Below, one piece after another: positions 1 through 7,488 of a DNA stretch of 36,763 nucleotides. Location: positions 1-36,763 of the forward strand of contig ONVK01000023.1 of NCBI GenBank assembly GCA_900321255.1, read 5' to 3'. Under the pieces are notes generated by a model. The model worked only from the letters and a program-made list of their open reading frames with translations. It had not been told where the DNA came from and made no database searches. Positions within the stretch are counted from its first letter, which is position 1. Every line of letters starts with the position of its first letter. The DNA is from an uncultured Lentisphaerota bacterium (GTDB taxonomy: Bacteria > Verrucomicrobiota > Kiritimatiellia > RFP12 > UBA1067). The position numbers and the translations under genes were made by a program.

Positions 1-451
1 TGATGAGCATCCAGCCGTCGTAGAAGAAAGTGTGCGTCGCGGCGGGCGTGATCTTCTGCACGCGCCGGTCGAGGTGGTCGTAGCGGTTGGAGACGACGAG
101 CCCGAAGTCGGTCGAGCCACAGGCACGACTCGACGCGGACGTCAGGCGCGACTTGGCGTCGTAAGTGTAGTTCCAGGTGTCGATCGGCTCATTTGGATAG
201 TATGGCGCCGAGTGGACGAGCGAGCCGTTCGCGTCAAACGTATGCATTGCAGTGCCTACGCCGCTAACGCCGTTATACATCATCTGGTTCAGCTCGTTCG
301 CGCCGTAGTATATGGCATGGTTGTCAATCTCGGAATAATGAGGATTGCCAGCCGCGTCCCATGTGTAGCCGTCCGACACACCGGACGAAGGCTGTCCGAC
401 GCGGCGCCAGTTCACGCCATTCTGACTGCATATATGTACCACTCTGCGCAT
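1..451 (-). pseudogene. Orphan Rhs/YD-repeat core fragment, runs off the left edge
   Basis: Read leftwards from an ATG at 451, just after an in-frame TAG at 452-454, this frame stays open to the window edge and encodes YD-type repeats, e.g. TWDAAGN, TYDAKSRL and SNRYDHLDRR, ending in THTFFYDGWML. The last part is the same as in the large rhs gene: 4-99 is identical to 2304-2399 over 96 bases; further upstream the two only resemble each other. No good ribosome binding site precedes the ATG. The fragment lies just downstream of the rhs gene and its small follower gene, which is where orphan Rhs-CT modules (a truncated core joined to an alternative C-terminal domain) are found in other bacteria. 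Whether a toxin domain follows cannot be seen. Alternative: the 5' end of a second, separately expressed Rhs gene. Confidence 0.75.
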
Positions 452-509: not shown

Positions 510-1244
510 CTACCGGGATTGTCCATCCGGCTTCCATAACAGCCCGACAAATACCCGTTCATAGCCTTTAGCAGCAATCATGTCGATAAAATCAAGTAAC
601 AAGCCAACCTTCATGGTAACCAGGCATCTTATGTCCACAAATGGACAGGCGGCTGGCACTTGGTATGGAAGTTCGGGGCTTTTTCGACACACTGCCAACA
701 TGCGATCAATTCCATCAATAAATCCTTCTTGCTCGGTTACACGCACCGATTCATCCCATCTTGAAAAAGGTTTGTCATCGCAAAGCACAAAAGAATAATA
801 AGCACCATCCTTTTTGTCAACAGCTCGATAACACCAACTCGCCTCAAGAGGTATCGCATGCACTGCTATATTGTGCATATTTTCATTCCTCCTGTACATC
901 TTAAAAGGACCACAGGTAAAACCCATCATGCATGTATGAAACTCCATGTGCGTCATTTCACGATCCGCATCAATGAAAAACCTTGTTTTATCCTTGTCAT
1001 ATTTCTGCAAGTCATGTTCGATCCTTGCAAATTCAGACTCATCTCCCCAGGCCCCATAGACATGATTGGAAAGGTTGTATTTCTTCCCCGCGAGCCACAC
1101 GATGCACCCCCTTTGAAACACGACCGTCACTTCCTCGTCCTTGCCGCTAATCCCACGGTCTCGCTGACATGATGCGGAGACCGTAAGCAAGACAATTCCG
1201 CACATGATTGCCTTAATGATTCTGCATGCTCTTGAAATGCTCAT
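510..1244 (-). CDS. Small exported protein, candidate immunity partner of the Rhs C-terminal domain
   Basis: Protein of 244 residues of no family I recognise. The start at 1244 is chosen because AAGGAG sits 7 nt before it; an upstream ATG at 1286 has no such site. The N-terminus (MSISRACRIIKAIMCGIVLLTVSASC) has a basic part, a hydrophobic core and a Cys, so it is a signal peptide or an atypical lipoprotein signal (Ser at -3 is not standard). Two stretches, around RFFIDADREMTHMEFHTC and near the C-terminus LLLDFIDMIAAKGYERVFVG, faintly recall the beta-alpha-beta unit of ExbD/TolR periplasmic domains. It overlaps the end of rhs by 32 nt, the position usually held by immunity genes, and like the rhs 3' end it is AT-richer than its surroundings. 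The immunity role is inferred from position only. Confidence 0.7.
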   Translation of the reverse strand: MSISRACRIIKAIMCGIVLLTVSASCQRDRGISGKDEEVTVVFQRGCIVWLAGKKYNLSNHVYGAWGDESEFARIEHDLQKYDKDKTRFFIDADREMTHMEFHTCMMGFTCGPFKMYRRNENMHNIAVHAIPLEASWCYRAVDKKDGAYYSFVLCDDKPFSRWDESVRVTEQEGFIDGIDRMLAVCRKSPELPYQVPAACPFVDIRCLVTMKVGLLLDFIDMIAAKGYERVFVGLLWKPDGQSR

Positions 1245-4200
1245 CAATAATCTCCTTATAAAAATTTTCATCCCTGACCGGGCCATACCAAAGGCCTTCG
1301 GCAGTTGTCATCTCTTCGAGTCCAGCCTCCCCCTCATAGACAATGATTTTGCGAGGACACAGTCCGGTCTTCTGCGGTGAAGAGTAAACATCTTTGAGTC
1401 TTGATAGCATGGCCGTATACATTGGTATGAAATCATCTGCTCTTGCGTATGTAAGGCGATTTTGTGCATCATATTTAGTCACACGAGGAGAGACAAAACA
1501 CCCAAATGTGTTTTTTCGATCCAATTTCTGCCCAAGGGCATCAAGTCGCAACATACGACCGGCATTGTTTACATCATACATGACAACTGCATCGTCGTCG
1601 CGCTTGCGCGTATATGTCTCTTCGACAGAATATCTCTTTCCACTTACATCGACCGTCCCATGCGCAATGAAATACACATCAGACCCATATTTATCGACAT
1701 CTGCTCTCACTGAACTAAACGCTGCAATCGCCAGGTCCTTTATCTCTACATCATACAATTTATTTCCGTCTGGACCTTTCTTGTCTTTAAGTTCCTTTAA
1801 AAATCGCAGGATATCACGTGCTTCCTTTTCGCCCCCCAACCCCCACACATCGGTTAACGTCACTATTGCCCGCGTAAGCATTCTCGCCAACCCATGTTTA
1901 TCAAAACTAAAGATTGGATTATTTTTGCACATCGCATAAAGATTCACCCCACCTTCTTCCCCTATCGGATCCCTGGTGATCCATCGCATCAGCTCGGGTG
2001 AGTAGTAACGGTAGCCATAGTAATAGAATCCTGTCTCGGGATCGAAGTATTTTGTGGAGTAGCGGATGGAGAAGATGTTTGCCATTGAACCGGACAACGC
2101 GATCAACTTCCCGAAGGCGTCGTATGTGTACTGCGCGACGACGTTGCCTTGCGCGTCCCAGTAGCCCATGACATTGCCGTAGGCGTCGTAGAATGGAATG
2201 TAAAGTTGGCGAGTGGAGGAGTTGGGAGTGGAGGAGTTGGAAATGGCGAGGTACAGCAAGCCGCCGACACCACCAGCGCCGCCGATTGTCCCCGACAAGT
2301 CCTTGAGCATCCAGCCGTCGTAGAAGAAAGTGTGCGTCGCGGCGGGCGTGATCTTCTGCACGCGCCGGTCGAGGTGGTCGTAGCGGTTGGAGACGACGAA
2401 CTCGAAGCTATAGAGCTCGTCATAGTCGGTGAAGTCACCAGCATAATATCTTTCCTCGTCAAAGACCCACACACCGGCGCAGACAAGGCGCGATTTTGCG
2501 TCATAGAGGAAGCCACGCTCGCCGAAACGCGTCACCTCTCCGTTCTCTGAATGCTCAAGCCACGCGTCGTCGTCCGCCGCCCAGATGGATTCGTACTGGT
2601 TAAGGCTGTTTGCGTAGTAGGATGTTGCGACCGCAGGGAGTCCGCCAGTCGCGACCGAGGACTCCGAGAGGTTGCCTATGCCGTCGTAGGCGTAGGCGGA
2701 CGCATTCGCCGCGATCGTCGCATTCGTCACCTCGCCGCGACTGTTGTATGCAAACGTGTCGCCGCTGCGCGAAACTGGTCGATTCAAAGCATCGTAGGCA
2801 TAGGCAAATGAGTTCGTTGCGACTGGCGATGCGTTATGAACGGCGTAGACGTTTTCCCGTAGATAGTTTCCGCTATGGATTAGTTCGCGCGTGAACTGCA
2901 TCCCTCCCGTAAGAGTCAGATTGTAACCAGCGTCAAGCAGGTCGCCAGTGTAGGAATATGCAACATACGCCTCGTCATTTGAGATCGACGCCATCCTGCC
3001 GATAGACGAGTCGTAGGTTATAGTATCCGCAATACCATCGCGCAAGAGCGACACGATGCGCCCGTATGGATCGATGGAGCGGAAAATGTCGAGCGACAAT
3101 GCGCCAACCGTCGCCATCTCGTTTGTCACGACTCCTTGATTCGCAAGCGAATACGCATAACGCGCGACAGCGTTAGACGCCGCGACGGTGCGCCCGAAAG
3201 AATCGAGTGAAAGACCGTAGACACAAGATGGGTCGCTAGATGCCAGTCCAGTCTTGCGCCTATTGGAGTCGTACATATTCTCCGTCCAGCAACCGTCGGA
3301 TCGCGTTTCGCGAAGTGAAAGCCCGTCCGCCGTCCAGGTGTTCGTGATGGTCGAGCCGTCGGCAAATGTCTTTGAGATGCAACGCCCAGTTGCGGCGTCG
3401 AACTCCCAACGCGTCTCGTCCCAGTCCTCGCCGTAGCGAGTTGTCCGAAGCGACGTGCGGCGTCCAGCCGAATCATAGCCGAGGCGCAAAGGATAGGCGT
3501 CGCCGTCTTCCGAAACAACGCGCCCCTCCGCGTCATACACACGAGCGACGGCCTCACCAAGTTCATTGGTCTCCGCGACGCGGTTTCCGCGCGCGTCATA
3601 GCCATATTGTCTCCAGCGGACCGATTGGAGCGACGTCCCCGCGCACTCCCCTTCTCCGCCAAGATCCCCGTTCTCGGTGGGCACCCTGACCCAGAAGTCC
3701 CTCGCTACACCGCCGACCATTGCGCGCATCGCATAAAACGGCCATCCATAGAAATCGTAGTACGTCCAGACTGTTCCTGCGGACGAGGTCTCCTCAATGA
3801 CACGTCCAAAACGGCTCTTGCGCACCGACGTGCCGCCTGTCGCGGACACAAACGTCTCGGTCAGATCGAGCGACACATTGTCGAAGGACGATTCGCTACT
3901 CTCCGCAAGAACGCCGTTCGCATAGCGCAACAACCTCGACCTGAGAGCGTCGGAAAGTCCAGTCAGCTGAACCCACAATTCCTCTGTCTCGTTGGTGGCG
4001 GTTCCATGCGCCAGCGATTGGCCGTCGATACGCCACCATGCCCCGTCCGACTGCACATAGCGTGTCCATGATTCATCAAGGACTCCGCAAGAAGCGGCAC
4101 CAACATGCTCGCCCATCGCGTCGTACATGTTAGTCGCGACAATGCCAGAGGCAACGTCGAACGACGATGCTACGCGCGACGAGGCGCCGACGTAGGAATT

Positions 4201-7200
4201 AGAGACGCACGAAACTGGTGTTTGGACAAGGATCGTCCTTCCGAGGAAGTCACATGCAGTTTCAGAATTAGTGACAGCGCCGCAGTCGCCAGATTCCGTG
4301 ACGGAATATCCTCGCCTCGTGCCGTCCGCGCCATACACCGAGAGATTGCGGTTTGTGACAACATGCCCAGACGACGCTCTGACCGTGACGCTTCCGCCGC
4401 CGCGATACGACATATTGGTCGTCACGACATCAGGGGCTTCCGCTTCAGGAATCCACTCCGACGAGATCGTCGTTCGTGCCGATTGCGTCTCCATTTCACG
4501 CACAATCGTCCTCGCTCCCCGCACATCTACGGTTTCATAGATACCATTAAGGCCGCACGGCCGCGACGTGGACGATGTCATCACGTAGCTATAGCTATCA
4601 GAGGGATTCATGTCGTTGTACGACGCCTCTTGGTTCCTTGAGTGCCTGACGACTGTATTCGTCTCGTTGCCAAACACATCAAGAAAGTACCTTGTCACCC
4701 TGAACGAGTTCTTGAATGCCGTATGAGTGCCAGTATCATAATAATACTTGTCACCACTCGGCAGCTGCGCGAGGTAGACCTCTTCCTCGGCGTGGTAGAG
4801 CTTTTCCGTCTCCGGCGTCGAGCAGTAGAGCGTTTTGGCGCCATTGCGGTCGATGCGGAAGAGGAGCCGGCAGCAGTCGTATGCGTTCGTCTCCGAGGAC
4901 CCATCGTCGTACTGCGTGAACCTGAGACGATGGCGCGAGTCGTATGTGTGGCGTCTCCAGCCGAACTCGACGCCAGGGTCGGCCGTGAGTTGAGTTGCCT
5001 CGTAAAGCGTCAATCCATAGGCGAGATTGCGCTCCGTGACTGCGCGCGTCTTCGCCTCGTGAGCGCCCTTAGTGCGAAAGACAACGGTGCGGACGACCGA
5101 ATTCGAGAGGATCGTGTGGGAATGCGTCTCGGTCACGCCGTCCTCGTCCGTCTCGGAAATCGTCTCGCCGCGCATGAGATACGGCACGAGCGAAGACTCG
5201 TCGTCATAGCGAACGACCGTGGAGACGGCATTGCCCGGGTCGTCGATCGCGGCGGACTGCGAGCAGGCGCGGATCGTCGTCTCGGAGACAGTCGGCCAGC
5301 CGTTCGCCGCGACGCCGCGAACGTACCGCGTCCAGGTACGGGCAATCAACGTCGCCGTTCCGTCCGAGACGACATAGCGCGAGACGGTGCGCGGCTTGTC
5401 CCAGTCGTCCGCATGGCACGAGTCGCCCGCGCAGGGCGCGTAGTCCGTAACCGTCGCAAACGCGTCGCAGCTGGGGAGATCGCCAATCGAGTACGGGCCC
5501 CATTCGTCTGGCGCGGCAGATCCGTCGCGCTGGTCGAGGCGAAAGACTTCGCGCCCAAGTTCATCGTAGTCGACCCAGCTCCACGCGCGGTCGTCGCCCC
5601 ATACCATACGCAGTTGTCCGTTGCGTCGCGTGCCGCCGTCATCCCAGTAGGAGGCGTACGATGTCTTCCATGTCCCCCCGGCGCACTTCTCGCTGCGCTC
5701 GACCTCGCGAAGAACGGCATCATCACCCCAGCCAACGACAGCAGAAGTGACGCGGACATGGCTTCCCGTCACAGGACCACAGACCGAGACCGTTTCGACC
5801 GTGCGCGAATAGTCATTGCCATTGGAGAGCGTCTTCCCGGTGGAGATGGTGACATCCTCGCGTCCAGAGGTATTGTCCGCAACGGTCCATGTTCCGCCGG
5901 AAGGAGAGTACGAGACGTCGGACATGAGGCTTCCGCCCGCGTTGAACTTCCTGAAGCGCATTGCGCCGCCCTCGCGAGTGATCTCCCACGAGCGATCGTT
6001 CCTGCCCGTCGATGTGAAAGTGACCACGATTCGGACGCCGCCTGTAATCGGCGAGAGCGAGAGAGTCCGCCCGCCGCTGTCCGAGCAGGCGACCGTCCGC
6101 GTTCCGCTATCGGTCGCGTCGGAAACATGCGCATCTGGACGCTTGAGAAGCGAGAACGACGACAGCGATGGCTGGAAGACCGCGTCGCGGTCGAACCAGA
6201 GAAAGCCAGACACGAGGCCGTCCGCGGGGGAGCCGAGCGAGATGCGGAACCTCACAGAACCCAAGGACGGGCCGTCGAACACGTCGCAGTCGCCAGACGC
6301 GCATGAGCCGCATGACGAGCATCCATCGTTGGAGAGGAAGTCAGAACGGCCGCCAGACGGCCAGTAGCGGGCGTGCTCGCACGAGTTCGACCAGACAAGC
6401 GTTTGCCCAAGGAAGACCTTCGCAACGGCAATGCCGTCCACGACCTCCACGACGTTCGTTATCTCGGCAAAGGCCGAGACGTCCGTGCCGAAGGAGAACT
6501 CCGGCCTGCACGTGCATCCAATGGACGAATTTGTCCCGACGTGCCAACCTTCCCAGAGACAGGGCTCGTCGAGCGGATAGACCGAAAGGACAGAATATGA
6601 ATCATACGCCTCGTCGTAGCCGAGTGAATCGCCGGCGTAGGCGTGTGGCGTCCCAAAGGAGAGCGACGGCGCAAGCACGACAAGCTCGTCGCCAGTCGCG
6701 AGCTCAAACGAGCCAGGGCCGGTCGTGCCAACGGTCTCGTTCGTTGGATCGTAGTCAACCCCATCGACGTGCGCGAAAGGATCCACGGCGAAGTCGGGGT
6801 CGTATGGCGTGAATTCAGGCGGGCGCGACGACCGCTCCACGGAAACCGACACGGGAGCGGCTGTCGTCGAAACGGAAAGCCTTCTACCCGTTGCCGAGTT
6901 AACAATCGTCGGGAGACCCGGGAATGTGATGGCAAGCGAATCTCCGTAGAGAGCTTTGAAAGCCGCTGGCGGATGCCCGTTGGTGAGCGCCAGCGTGTCG
7001 CAGAGGTTCGTCTGGCCGAGGCCGACGATATACTCGCGCACGGGGCACCAGGCGTTAGTAAGGGAGAACTGCCTTTCGTGGAGTTCTATGCGCGAGCCAT
7101 ACGGGAGAATTGACTCAGGCCAGCCCACGGCGAAAACCTCGTTGCTCGGCGTAACCGAATACGCCGTAAACACGAGGTTCGTCGGGCCTTCGCCCATCCC

Positions 7201-7488
7201 GATGTCGCACGGCACATGGACCGCGCCATGCAAATCACTTCCGCCCTCGCAGCGATCAAGCCTATTGCTCGTCTTGTCCGCATTCGTCGGAAAACTGTTG
7301 ATCGTCATTGCGACCGAGAAGCCAGCAAACACAGCAATTCTGCCGACGTTCGAAGCGAGACGAGCAGAGCCAATCCTTCGCCTAACATACACAAAAAGCA
7401 AGGCGACAAATGGGAGCACAAAGAGACCTGTCAAACATGCCACCATCATGACATATTTAAAGCACTCGCTGTACTCAGTGAAATTCAT
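1213..7488 (-). CDS. Large Rhs/YD-repeat protein with variable C-terminal domain
   Basis: Protein of 2091 residues. The N-terminus has two hydrophobic segments (about 11-33 and 48-64), then about 550 residues of non-repeat sequence with a Cys-rich patch (CSSCGSCASGDC). From roughly residue 600 YD-type repeats (YDxxGR, YDANGR-like) continue to the diagnostic Rhs core end, FYYYGYRYYSPELMRW and RDPIGEEGGVNLYAM (Arg at 1839). After DKHGLA (His 1865) the sequence changes to a domain of about 224 residues that is AT-richer and lacks repeats. Rhs proteins are encapsulating shells that carry polymorphic toxins; that part is family knowledge. The C-terminal domain contains YFIAHG (His1943) and FGCFV (Cys1997), a spacing that would fit a caspase-like His/Cys pair, but this is inference. 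The start has AGGAAAAG 4-5 nt upstream. A repeat block at 2210-2250 encodes SNSSTPNSSTRQL inside the core. The following gene overlaps the stop. Confidence 0.93.
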   Translation of the reverse strand: MNFTEYSECFKYVMMVACLTGLFVLPFVALLFVYVRRRIGSARLASNVGRIAVFAGFSVAMTINSFPTNADKTSNRLDRCEGGSDLHGAVHVPCDIGMGEGPTNLVFTAYSVTPSNEVFAVGWPESILPYGSRIELHERQFSLTNAWCPVREYIVGLGQTNLCDTLALTNGHPPAAFKALYGDSLAITFPGLPTIVNSATGRRLSVSTTAAPVSVSVERSSRPPEFTPYDPDFAVDPFAHVDGVDYDPTNETVGTTGPGSFELATGDELVVLAPSLSFGTPHAYAGDSLGYDEAYDSYSVLSVYPLDEPCLWEGWHVGTNSSIGCTCRPEFSFGTDVSAFAEITNVVEVVDGIAVAKVFLGQTLVWSNSCEHARYWPSGGRSDFLSNDGCSSCGSCASGDCDVFDGPSLGSVRFRISLGSPADGLVSGFLWFDRDAVFQPSLSSFSLLKRPDAHVSDATDSGTRTVACSDSGGRTLSLSPITGGVRIVVTFTSTGRNDRSWEITREGGAMRFRKFNAGGSLMSDVSYSPSGGTWTVADNTSGREDVTISTGKTLSNGNDYSRTVETVSVCGPVTGSHVRVTSAVVGWGDDAVLREVERSEKCAGGTWKTSYASYWDDGGTRRNGQLRMVWGDDRAWSWVDYDELGREVFRLDQRDGSAAPDEWGPYSIGDLPSCDAFATVTDYAPCAGDSCHADDWDKPRTVSRYVVSDGTATLIARTWTRYVRGVAANGWPTVSETTIRACSQSAAIDDPGNAVSTVVRYDDESSLVPYLMRGETISETDEDGVTETHSHTILSNSVVRTVVFRTKGAHEAKTRAVTERNLAYGLTLYEATQLTADPGVEFGWRRHTYDSRHRLRFTQYDDGSSETNAYDCCRLLFRIDRNGAKTLYCSTPETEKLYHAEEEVYLAQLPSGDKYYYDTGTHTAFKNSFRVTRYFLDVFGNETNTVVRHSRNQEASYNDMNPSDSYSYVMTSSTSRPCGLNGIYETVDVRGARTIVREMETQSARTTISSEWIPEAEAPDVVTTNMSYRGGGSVTVRASSGHVVTNRNLSVYGADGTRRGYSVTESGDCGAVTNSETACDFLGRTILVQTPVSCVSNSYVGASSRVASSFDVASGIVATNMYDAMGEHVGAASCGVLDESWTRYVQSDGAWWRIDGQSLAHGTATNETEELWVQLTGLSDALRSRLLRYANGVLAESSESSFDNVSLDLTETFVSATGGTSVRKSRFGRVIEETSSAGTVWTYYDFYGWPFYAMRAMVGGVARDFWVRVPTENGDLGGEGECAGTSLQSVRWRQYGYDARGNRVAETNELGEAVARVYDAEGRVVSEDGDAYPLRLGYDSAGRRTSLRTTRYGEDWDETRWEFDAATGRCISKTFADGSTITNTWTADGLSLRETRSDGCWTENMYDSNRRKTGLASSDPSCVYGLSLDSFGRTVAASNAVARYAYSLANQGVVTNEMATVGALSLDIFRSIDPYGRIVSLLRDGIADTITYDSSIGRMASISNDEAYVAYSYTGDLLDAGYNLTLTGGMQFTRELIHSGNYLRENVYAVHNASPVATNSFAYAYDALNRPVSRSGDTFAYNSRGEVTNATIAANASAYAYDGIGNLSESSVATGGLPAVATSYYANSLNQYESIWAADDDAWLEHSENGEVTRFGERGFLYDAKSRLVCAGVWVFDEERYYAGDFTDYDELYSFEFVVSNRYDHLDRRVQKITPAATHTFFYDGWMLKDLSGTIGGAGGVGGLLYLAISNSSTPNSSTRQLYIPFYDAYGNVMGYWDAQGNVVAQYTYDAFGKLIALSGSMANIFSIRYSTKYFDPETGFYYYGYRYYSPELMRWITRDPIGEEGGVNLYAMCKNNPIFSFDKHGLARMLTRAIVTLTDVWGLGGEKEARDILRFLKELKDKKGPDGNKLYDVEIKDLAIAAFSSVRADVDKYGSDVYFIAHGTVDVSGKRYSVEETYTRKRDDDAVVMYDVNNAGRMLRLDALGQKLDRKNTFGCFVSPRVTKYDAQNRLTYARADDFIPMYTAMLSRLKDVYSSPQKTGLCPRKIIVYEGEAGLEEMTTAEGLWYGPVRDENFYKEIIDEHFKSMQNH
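2210..2250. repeat. In-frame GGAGGAGTTGG tandem repeat inside rhs
   Basis: GAGTGGAGGAGTTGG occurs twice in tandem and is read in the rhs frame as SNSSTPNSST, interrupting the otherwise conserved core between a LYLA strand and RQLYIPFYDAYGN. The unit resembles the block in folC at 15041-15087. Confidence 0.7.
2304..2399. repeat. 96-bp perfect direct repeat, copy 2 (copy 1 at 4-99)
   Basis: Bases 2304-2399 are identical to 4-99, in the same orientation and about 2.3 kb apart. Both encode SNRYDHLDRR and THTFFYDGWML of the Rhs core. The sequence diverges sharply at both ends. Confidence 0.9.

Follow-up and report, generated by a model that had tools for sequence, protein, structure and literature searches.

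A Candidate Rhs Toxin Tip Family with an Invariant Histidine–Cysteine Pair and Predicted Exported Partner Proteins

Introduction

Some polymorphic toxins are described as carrying caspase-like C-terminal tips (Zhang et al. 2012, PMC3482391). Like the tip described herein, the Tox-Caspase domains of that collection are the C-terminal-most domains of their proteins, carry a His followed by a Cys, and have Rhs proteins among their listed carriers. However, our tip has no detected similarity to the caspase and CHAT models and proteins that we tested. Tox-Caspase is also listed with Imm36 and Imm57, whereas the partner proteins found here are predicted to be exported and belong to no Pfam family, and its lineage list contains no verrucomicrobial lineages (PMC3482391).

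Two other systems offer functional comparisons. The C-terminal domain of VgrG2b and its immunity protein PA0261 from Pseudomonas aeruginosa provide an example of a periplasm-acting, peptidase-family toxin paired with an immunity protein, but VgrG2b is a zinc metallopeptidase on a T6SS spike and thus is neither an Rhs tip nor a cysteine enzyme (PMC6899460). Similarly, Cpe1 and Cpi1 from Escherichia coli constitute an interbacterial cysteine protease toxin and its immunity protein, but Cpe1 is papain-like and cleaves GyrB and ParE (PMC12136450). The tip reported here represents a new family, whereas polymorphic Rhs toxin tips as a kind are already known.

Results and Discussion

An Rhs Protein with an AT-Rich Variable Tip

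The DNA analyzed (the window) is a stretch of 36,763 nucleotides from the draft genome of an uncultured Lentisphaerota bacterium (assembly GCA_900321255.1, contig ONVK01000023.1). The Rhs features at its beginning are as follows.

1213-7488, minus strand: ORF for an Rhs/YD-repeat protein of 2091 amino acids
1888..7488, minus strand: residues 1-1867, including an N-terminal hydrophobic segment (residues ~9-37), the repeat shell and the Rhs-associated core
1960..1974, minus strand: RDPIG core-end motif, residues 1839-1843
1213..1893, minus strand: variable C-terminal tip, the predicted toxin domain, residues ~1866-2091
2..451, minus strand: second Rhs core fragment, downstream and cut by the contig end (PF05593, E 1.8e-5)

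An RDPIG-type motif usually marks the boundary region that precedes an Rhs tip. Two hallmarks of an Rhs polymorphic toxin, repeats and a core ending in a DPxG motif, are both present in the 2091-residue protein, with YD/RHS repeats recognized by Pfam (PF05593, E 5.8e-13) and an Rhs-associated core recognized by NCBIfam at residues 1789-1867 (TIGR03696, E 1.4e-24). The original observation that an AT-richer domain begins after the RDPIG core end is borne out by the GC content, which is 0.449 (45%) for the tip and 0.590 (59%) for the core.

The draft genome carries eight Rhs core ends with mostly unlike tips, and a short ORF lies behind each of them. Two of the eight (on contigs C72 and C67) bear the tip examined here, and at several of the others the short ORF encodes a signal peptide. 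The core fragment at 2-451 ends in FFYDGWML, and contig C67, which bears a second tip of the family, begins (at L002:1) with KDLSGTIGG. This fragment resembles the beginning of an orphan tip cassette, and we infer its join to C67; the interruption between window positions 1-451 and C67 is probably an assembly break in a repeated core. At a related locus (L016), a core fragment with a different tip likewise lies behind the toxin and partner genes in an orphan-cassette layout. The tip of that fragment (L016:7321-8628) resembles an alpha/beta hydrolase of the Lipase_3 type.

Invariant Residues in a Rare, Lineage-Restricted Family

Whole-genome searches identified five relatives of the tip, all in Kiritimatiellae-type genomes of a single order. 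One is the second copy in the source genome (contig C67), three are in genomes G027, G098 and G151, and a truncated copy is in G111. A class-wide search of 346 genomes matched the same five genomes, and a search of a 387-genome sample of the phylum matched three of these five and no others, such that neither search added a genome to the order-level results. Relatives were also sought in phages, plasmids and viral contigs, and none were found. Thus, among the genomes searched, the family is rare and confined to one lineage.

Several weaker matches were rejected. One candidate (L008, E 0.009) is an unrelated 591-residue ORF that lacks the FGC motif and reads like a glycoside hydrolase. Ten weak matches from the class and phylum searches were inspected and attributed to chance, including metallophosphatases, SctU-like proteins and beta-rich proteins. 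SctU/FlhB-like export gate genes (L027, L030 and L036) lie in genomes of the same family, which may carry a flagellar or type III secretion system.

Four of the five relatives are carried on Rhs proteins. The fifth (L007:1500-1971) is truncated, lacks both an Rhs core and the strand bearing the YEGE motif, and is probably a remnant. Over the aligned parts, identity between the window tip and its four full-length relatives is 29-32%, and full-length pairs overall range from 29 to 50%, the upper value being that of L006 and L012. An alignment of all six copies (A4), with tip columns numbered from residue 1864, has invariant columns A27, L37, G45, D55, A79, H80, G81, N130, C134, S137, K142 and C181, the last of which is not meaningful in the truncated copy. 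Columns H80, C134 and C181 correspond to His1943, Cys1997 and Cys2044, which lie among the following tip features.

1657..1677, minus strand: VYFIAHG with His1943-Gly1944, invariant in 6/6 copies
1495..1506, minus strand: FGCF with Cys1997, invariant in 6/6 copies, 51-54 residues after the His
1357..1359, minus strand: Cys2044, the second cysteine, kept in 5/5 full-length copies
1324..1335, minus strand: YEGE, residues 2052-2055, present as [YF]EGE in 5/5 full-length copies

A His in YFIAHG and a Cys in FGCFV had been noted 54 residues apart in the window tip, and their positions, within VYFIAHG and TFGCF, are exactly as claimed. Their conservation among homologs, proposed as a check, is complete across the six copies. 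The His blocks read VYFIAHG, VYLIAHG, VFVIAHG, VYIIAHG, TYFIAHG and VYIVAHG, and the Cys blocks read NTFGCFVSP, NVYACYLSP, NLFGCYMSP, NVFGCYISA, NVFGCFLSP and NLFGCYISP. In each copy, the histidine (in IAHG or VAHG) and the cysteine (in C[FY]xS) both follow a hydrophobic stretch. This invariance and the near-fixed spacing support a functional role for both residues, as judged from sequence. Cys2044, which was absent from the earlier account, is the only other cysteine of the window tip. Its conservation permits a disulfide, and it could pair with Cys1997.

The bare pattern of HG followed by Cys 30-80 residues later is weak evidence by itself because it appears in 9% of shuffled versions of the window tip. 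A stricter pattern (three hydrophobic residues, a small residue and HG, then a later hydrophobic stretch ending in [AGSQ]C) was absent from all 20,000 shuffles, but this pattern was chosen after the motif had been seen. The invariance of the pair across all six copies is stronger evidence than the shuffle statistics.

Other Rhs tips of the source genome also have HG and Cys motifs. The tip at L048 (contig C142) and its two relatives L055 and L056 form another undescribed Rhs tip family with no Pfam or NCBIfam match. These proteins have an invariant HG and Cys, in which GHG or AHG is followed by FVTCRSG, FATCESG or FVICGAG, and these motifs are closer to textbook caspase/CHAT patterns than are those of the tip studied here. 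The tip at L051 (contig C151) carries VSGHG and then LDMCYVGNG, and its HG and Cys region aligns weakly with that of the L048 family (hhalign E 0.0041, probability 8%). The L049 tip (contig C142) also has an HG-then-Cys pattern (YVAHG...YWGCG).

Family Searches and Predicted Fold

Comparison of the tip with Pfam, NCBIfam and PDB sequences yielded no match above noise, including none among the Pfam caspase, CHAT and other peptidase models. Peptidase_C14 (PF00656) and CHAT (PF12770) were listed by Pfam for none of the six members at E values up to 10, and a PDB profile search returned only matches of E 0.37 or worse. A Peptidase_S3 match (Pfam, E 0.076) appeared for one member only and was dismissed as chance. 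Alignment by hhalign to three other Rhs tips of the source genome and to the A8 family gave nothing significant. The same was true for one CHAT protein and for a C14 alignment built from five sequences of related genomes, but this is a low-power test that says little because it also failed to connect a more typical-looking HG/Cys tip family to C14. The tip could not be placed in a toxin family in the earlier account, and no clear match to another such family emerged here.

Structure prediction was conducted with AlphaFold using alignment A4 (pLDDT 75.3, pTM 0.77) and again with L006 as the first sequence (pLDDT 84.0, pTM 0.84). Both models include a helix at approximately 24-38, a strand at 48-55, a helix at 60-74, a strand leading into HG, hairpin strands, a short helix, a short strand preceding the Cys, a helix at 156-172 and a strand at 181-189. 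The expected first strand (GxARML...) is of low confidence in both. This order of helices and strands is that of a caspase-like domain, and the predicted element order of the tip therefore fits the caspase plan.

Fold searches were less informative. Foldseek comparison with the PDB found no significant match for either model, and a BFVD search produced nothing significant. For the first model, the top VIA row was murine caspase-11 (Z 3.5, rmsd 4.4, 119 aligned), a weak match followed by protein tyrosine phosphatases at Z 2.8 and below. The modeled similarity to caspase-11, lying within one Z unit of the phosphatases, is in the range of common arrangements. For the second model, guanylate kinase was the top row (Z 3.0, rmsd 3.5, 91 residues) and no caspase row was present, an absence that is not evidence for a different fold.

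A resemblance to C14 and CHAT peptidases lies in the local motifs, where a hydrophobic strand precedes HG and a later hydrophobic strand precedes a small residue and the Cys. In contrast, members of the C14 and CHAT families in related genomes continue from the Cys with xSG or xTG, whereas the tip continues with [FY]xS[PA]. The original interpretation as a whole is partly supported. For its caspase/CHAT-type domain, the motif order and spacing of the tip are compatible, and structure prediction, one of the checks suggested for it, gave a caspase-like order of elements. The fold and profile searches (Foldseek, Pfam and hhalign) returned no match that would establish it. We regard this model-based reading as plausible but not proved. 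Our leading and still tentative assignment, which we place a little short of an even chance, is that the tip is a thiol hydrolase, such as a cysteine peptidase, built on a caspase-like plan.

The most serious competitor, which we consider unlikely but worth weighing, is that the tip adopts another or a new alpha/beta fold. In such a domain, catalysis would depend on the invariant His and on the conserved YEGE glutamate, perhaps together with the invariant Asp55 (tip numbering), and Cys1997 and Cys2044 would form a structural disulfide. A bond of this type would suit an exported domain, and the partner proteins of these tips are predicted to be exported. Retention of YEGE and of both tip cysteines in every full-length copy, together with the lack of a significant fold match for either model, is consistent with this alternative. 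However, the surroundings of Cys1997 are themselves conserved and resemble the hydrophobic strand, small residue and Cys of clan CD, and the order of predicted elements fits the caspase plan.

Partner Genes and the Case for a Toxin

Each of the five intact loci has an ORF whose start lies at the toxin stop or inside it, and this position alone marks it as a candidate immunity gene. The representative in the window is listed below.

510..1244, minus strand: probable cognate immunity protein of 244 amino acids with a signal peptide and a lipobox-like end, TVSASC

With its start placed at 1244, this ORF reaches 32 bases into the toxin gene and is preceded by AAGGAG at 1252-1257; its longest ORF starts at 1286. 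The two genes overlap by four bases at L006 and L015, where the partner ATG meets the toxin stop, and by 16 bases at L002. The longest partner ORF at L016 (on the same contig as L005) starts with TTG two bases after the stop, and an internal ATG is possible. Inspection by eye revealed that all five partner N-termini are signal-peptide-like and that four have a lipobox-like Cys. The window partner has no Pfam match, and the partners have no detectable similarity to each other (L016 was compared in an alignment only), indicating that they may be unrelated or fast-evolving. Based on these sequence features, the ORF at the toxin stop is likely to encode an immunity protein that is predicted to be exported, and the window representative is probably a lipoprotein. 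Imm65, the only lipoprotein immunity protein in the 2012 collection, likewise has a lipobox, but it pairs with Tox-JAB-1 (PMC3482391).

The partner at L015:2813-4708 is a secreted protein of 631 amino acids and is far larger than the others. Part of it weakly resembles ExbD/TolR (E 0.037, below the cut-off), a match that serves as a lead only.

Three observations argue that the tip very probably serves a polymorphic Rhs system as its toxin domain: its polymorphic position, the orphan-cassette layout, and the coupling of the toxin gene to a gene for a predicted exported partner. The proposal of an Rhs shell tipped with a toxin is well supported by these same features. It is improbable that the tip is instead a degenerate or non-toxic domain beside an unrelated secreted protein. 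The truncated copy without an Rhs core and the dissimilar partner sequences speak for this reading, but five full-length open frames share the invariant residues and every one of these loci has the coupled ORF.

Less Probable Activities

We judge it still more doubtful that the tip is an ADP-ribosyltransferase-type toxin that uses the His of HGT/HGG, an FGxY-like motif and the YEGE glutamate. A transferase class with an HG[ST],Y,K,E signature does exist (Zhang et al., PMC3482391), and the HGT of the window copy, the FGCF/FGCY motif and the late ExE are superficially alike. However, only the window copy has HG[ST], whereas the other copies have HGG, and the aromatic residue after the Cys is either F or Y. 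The helix-strand alternation predicted before HG is also unlike the transferase plan, and no transferase row appears in the family or fold lists.

A self-processing peptidase that releases a toxin, the role stated for most caspase-like domains of polymorphic toxins (PMC3482391), is the least probable identity because only ~36 residues remain beyond the final predicted strand, which leaves no further toxin to release, and the partner gene comes directly after the tip.

Proposed Mechanism and Implications

If the tip is a cysteine peptidase or related thiol hydrolase, as we tentatively favor, the Rhs shell would carry it out of the cell and the Rhs core would cleave it free. His1943, which follows a hydrophobic strand (IAHG), and Cys1997, which follows a later strand (FGC), would form a catalytic dyad. 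Because export of the partners is predicted, the periplasm is most likely where the toxin acts or is intercepted. The partner protein would protect kin by binding the toxin in that compartment, and neighboring bacteria would be the targets of the system.

We also speculate, as a more ambitious and rather unlikely extension, that these bacteria possess lineage-restricted His/Cys tips whose caspase-like plan is too diverged for current models. Such tips would operate in the periplasm and be countered by exported immunity proteins that are fast-changing or unrelated, and at least one further tip family of the same genome (with GHG...C) might belong to the same radiation.

These findings bring to light an undescribed toxin tip, together with candidate immunity pairs, in a group of bacteria that is little studied and largely uncultured. 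They also indicate exported antidotes, which Zhang et al. found in 2012 to be rare among immunity proteins (PMC3482391). If the caspase-like reading is true, then the tip would provide a testable example of a caspase-plan enzyme serving as an interbacterial weapon outside the cytosol.
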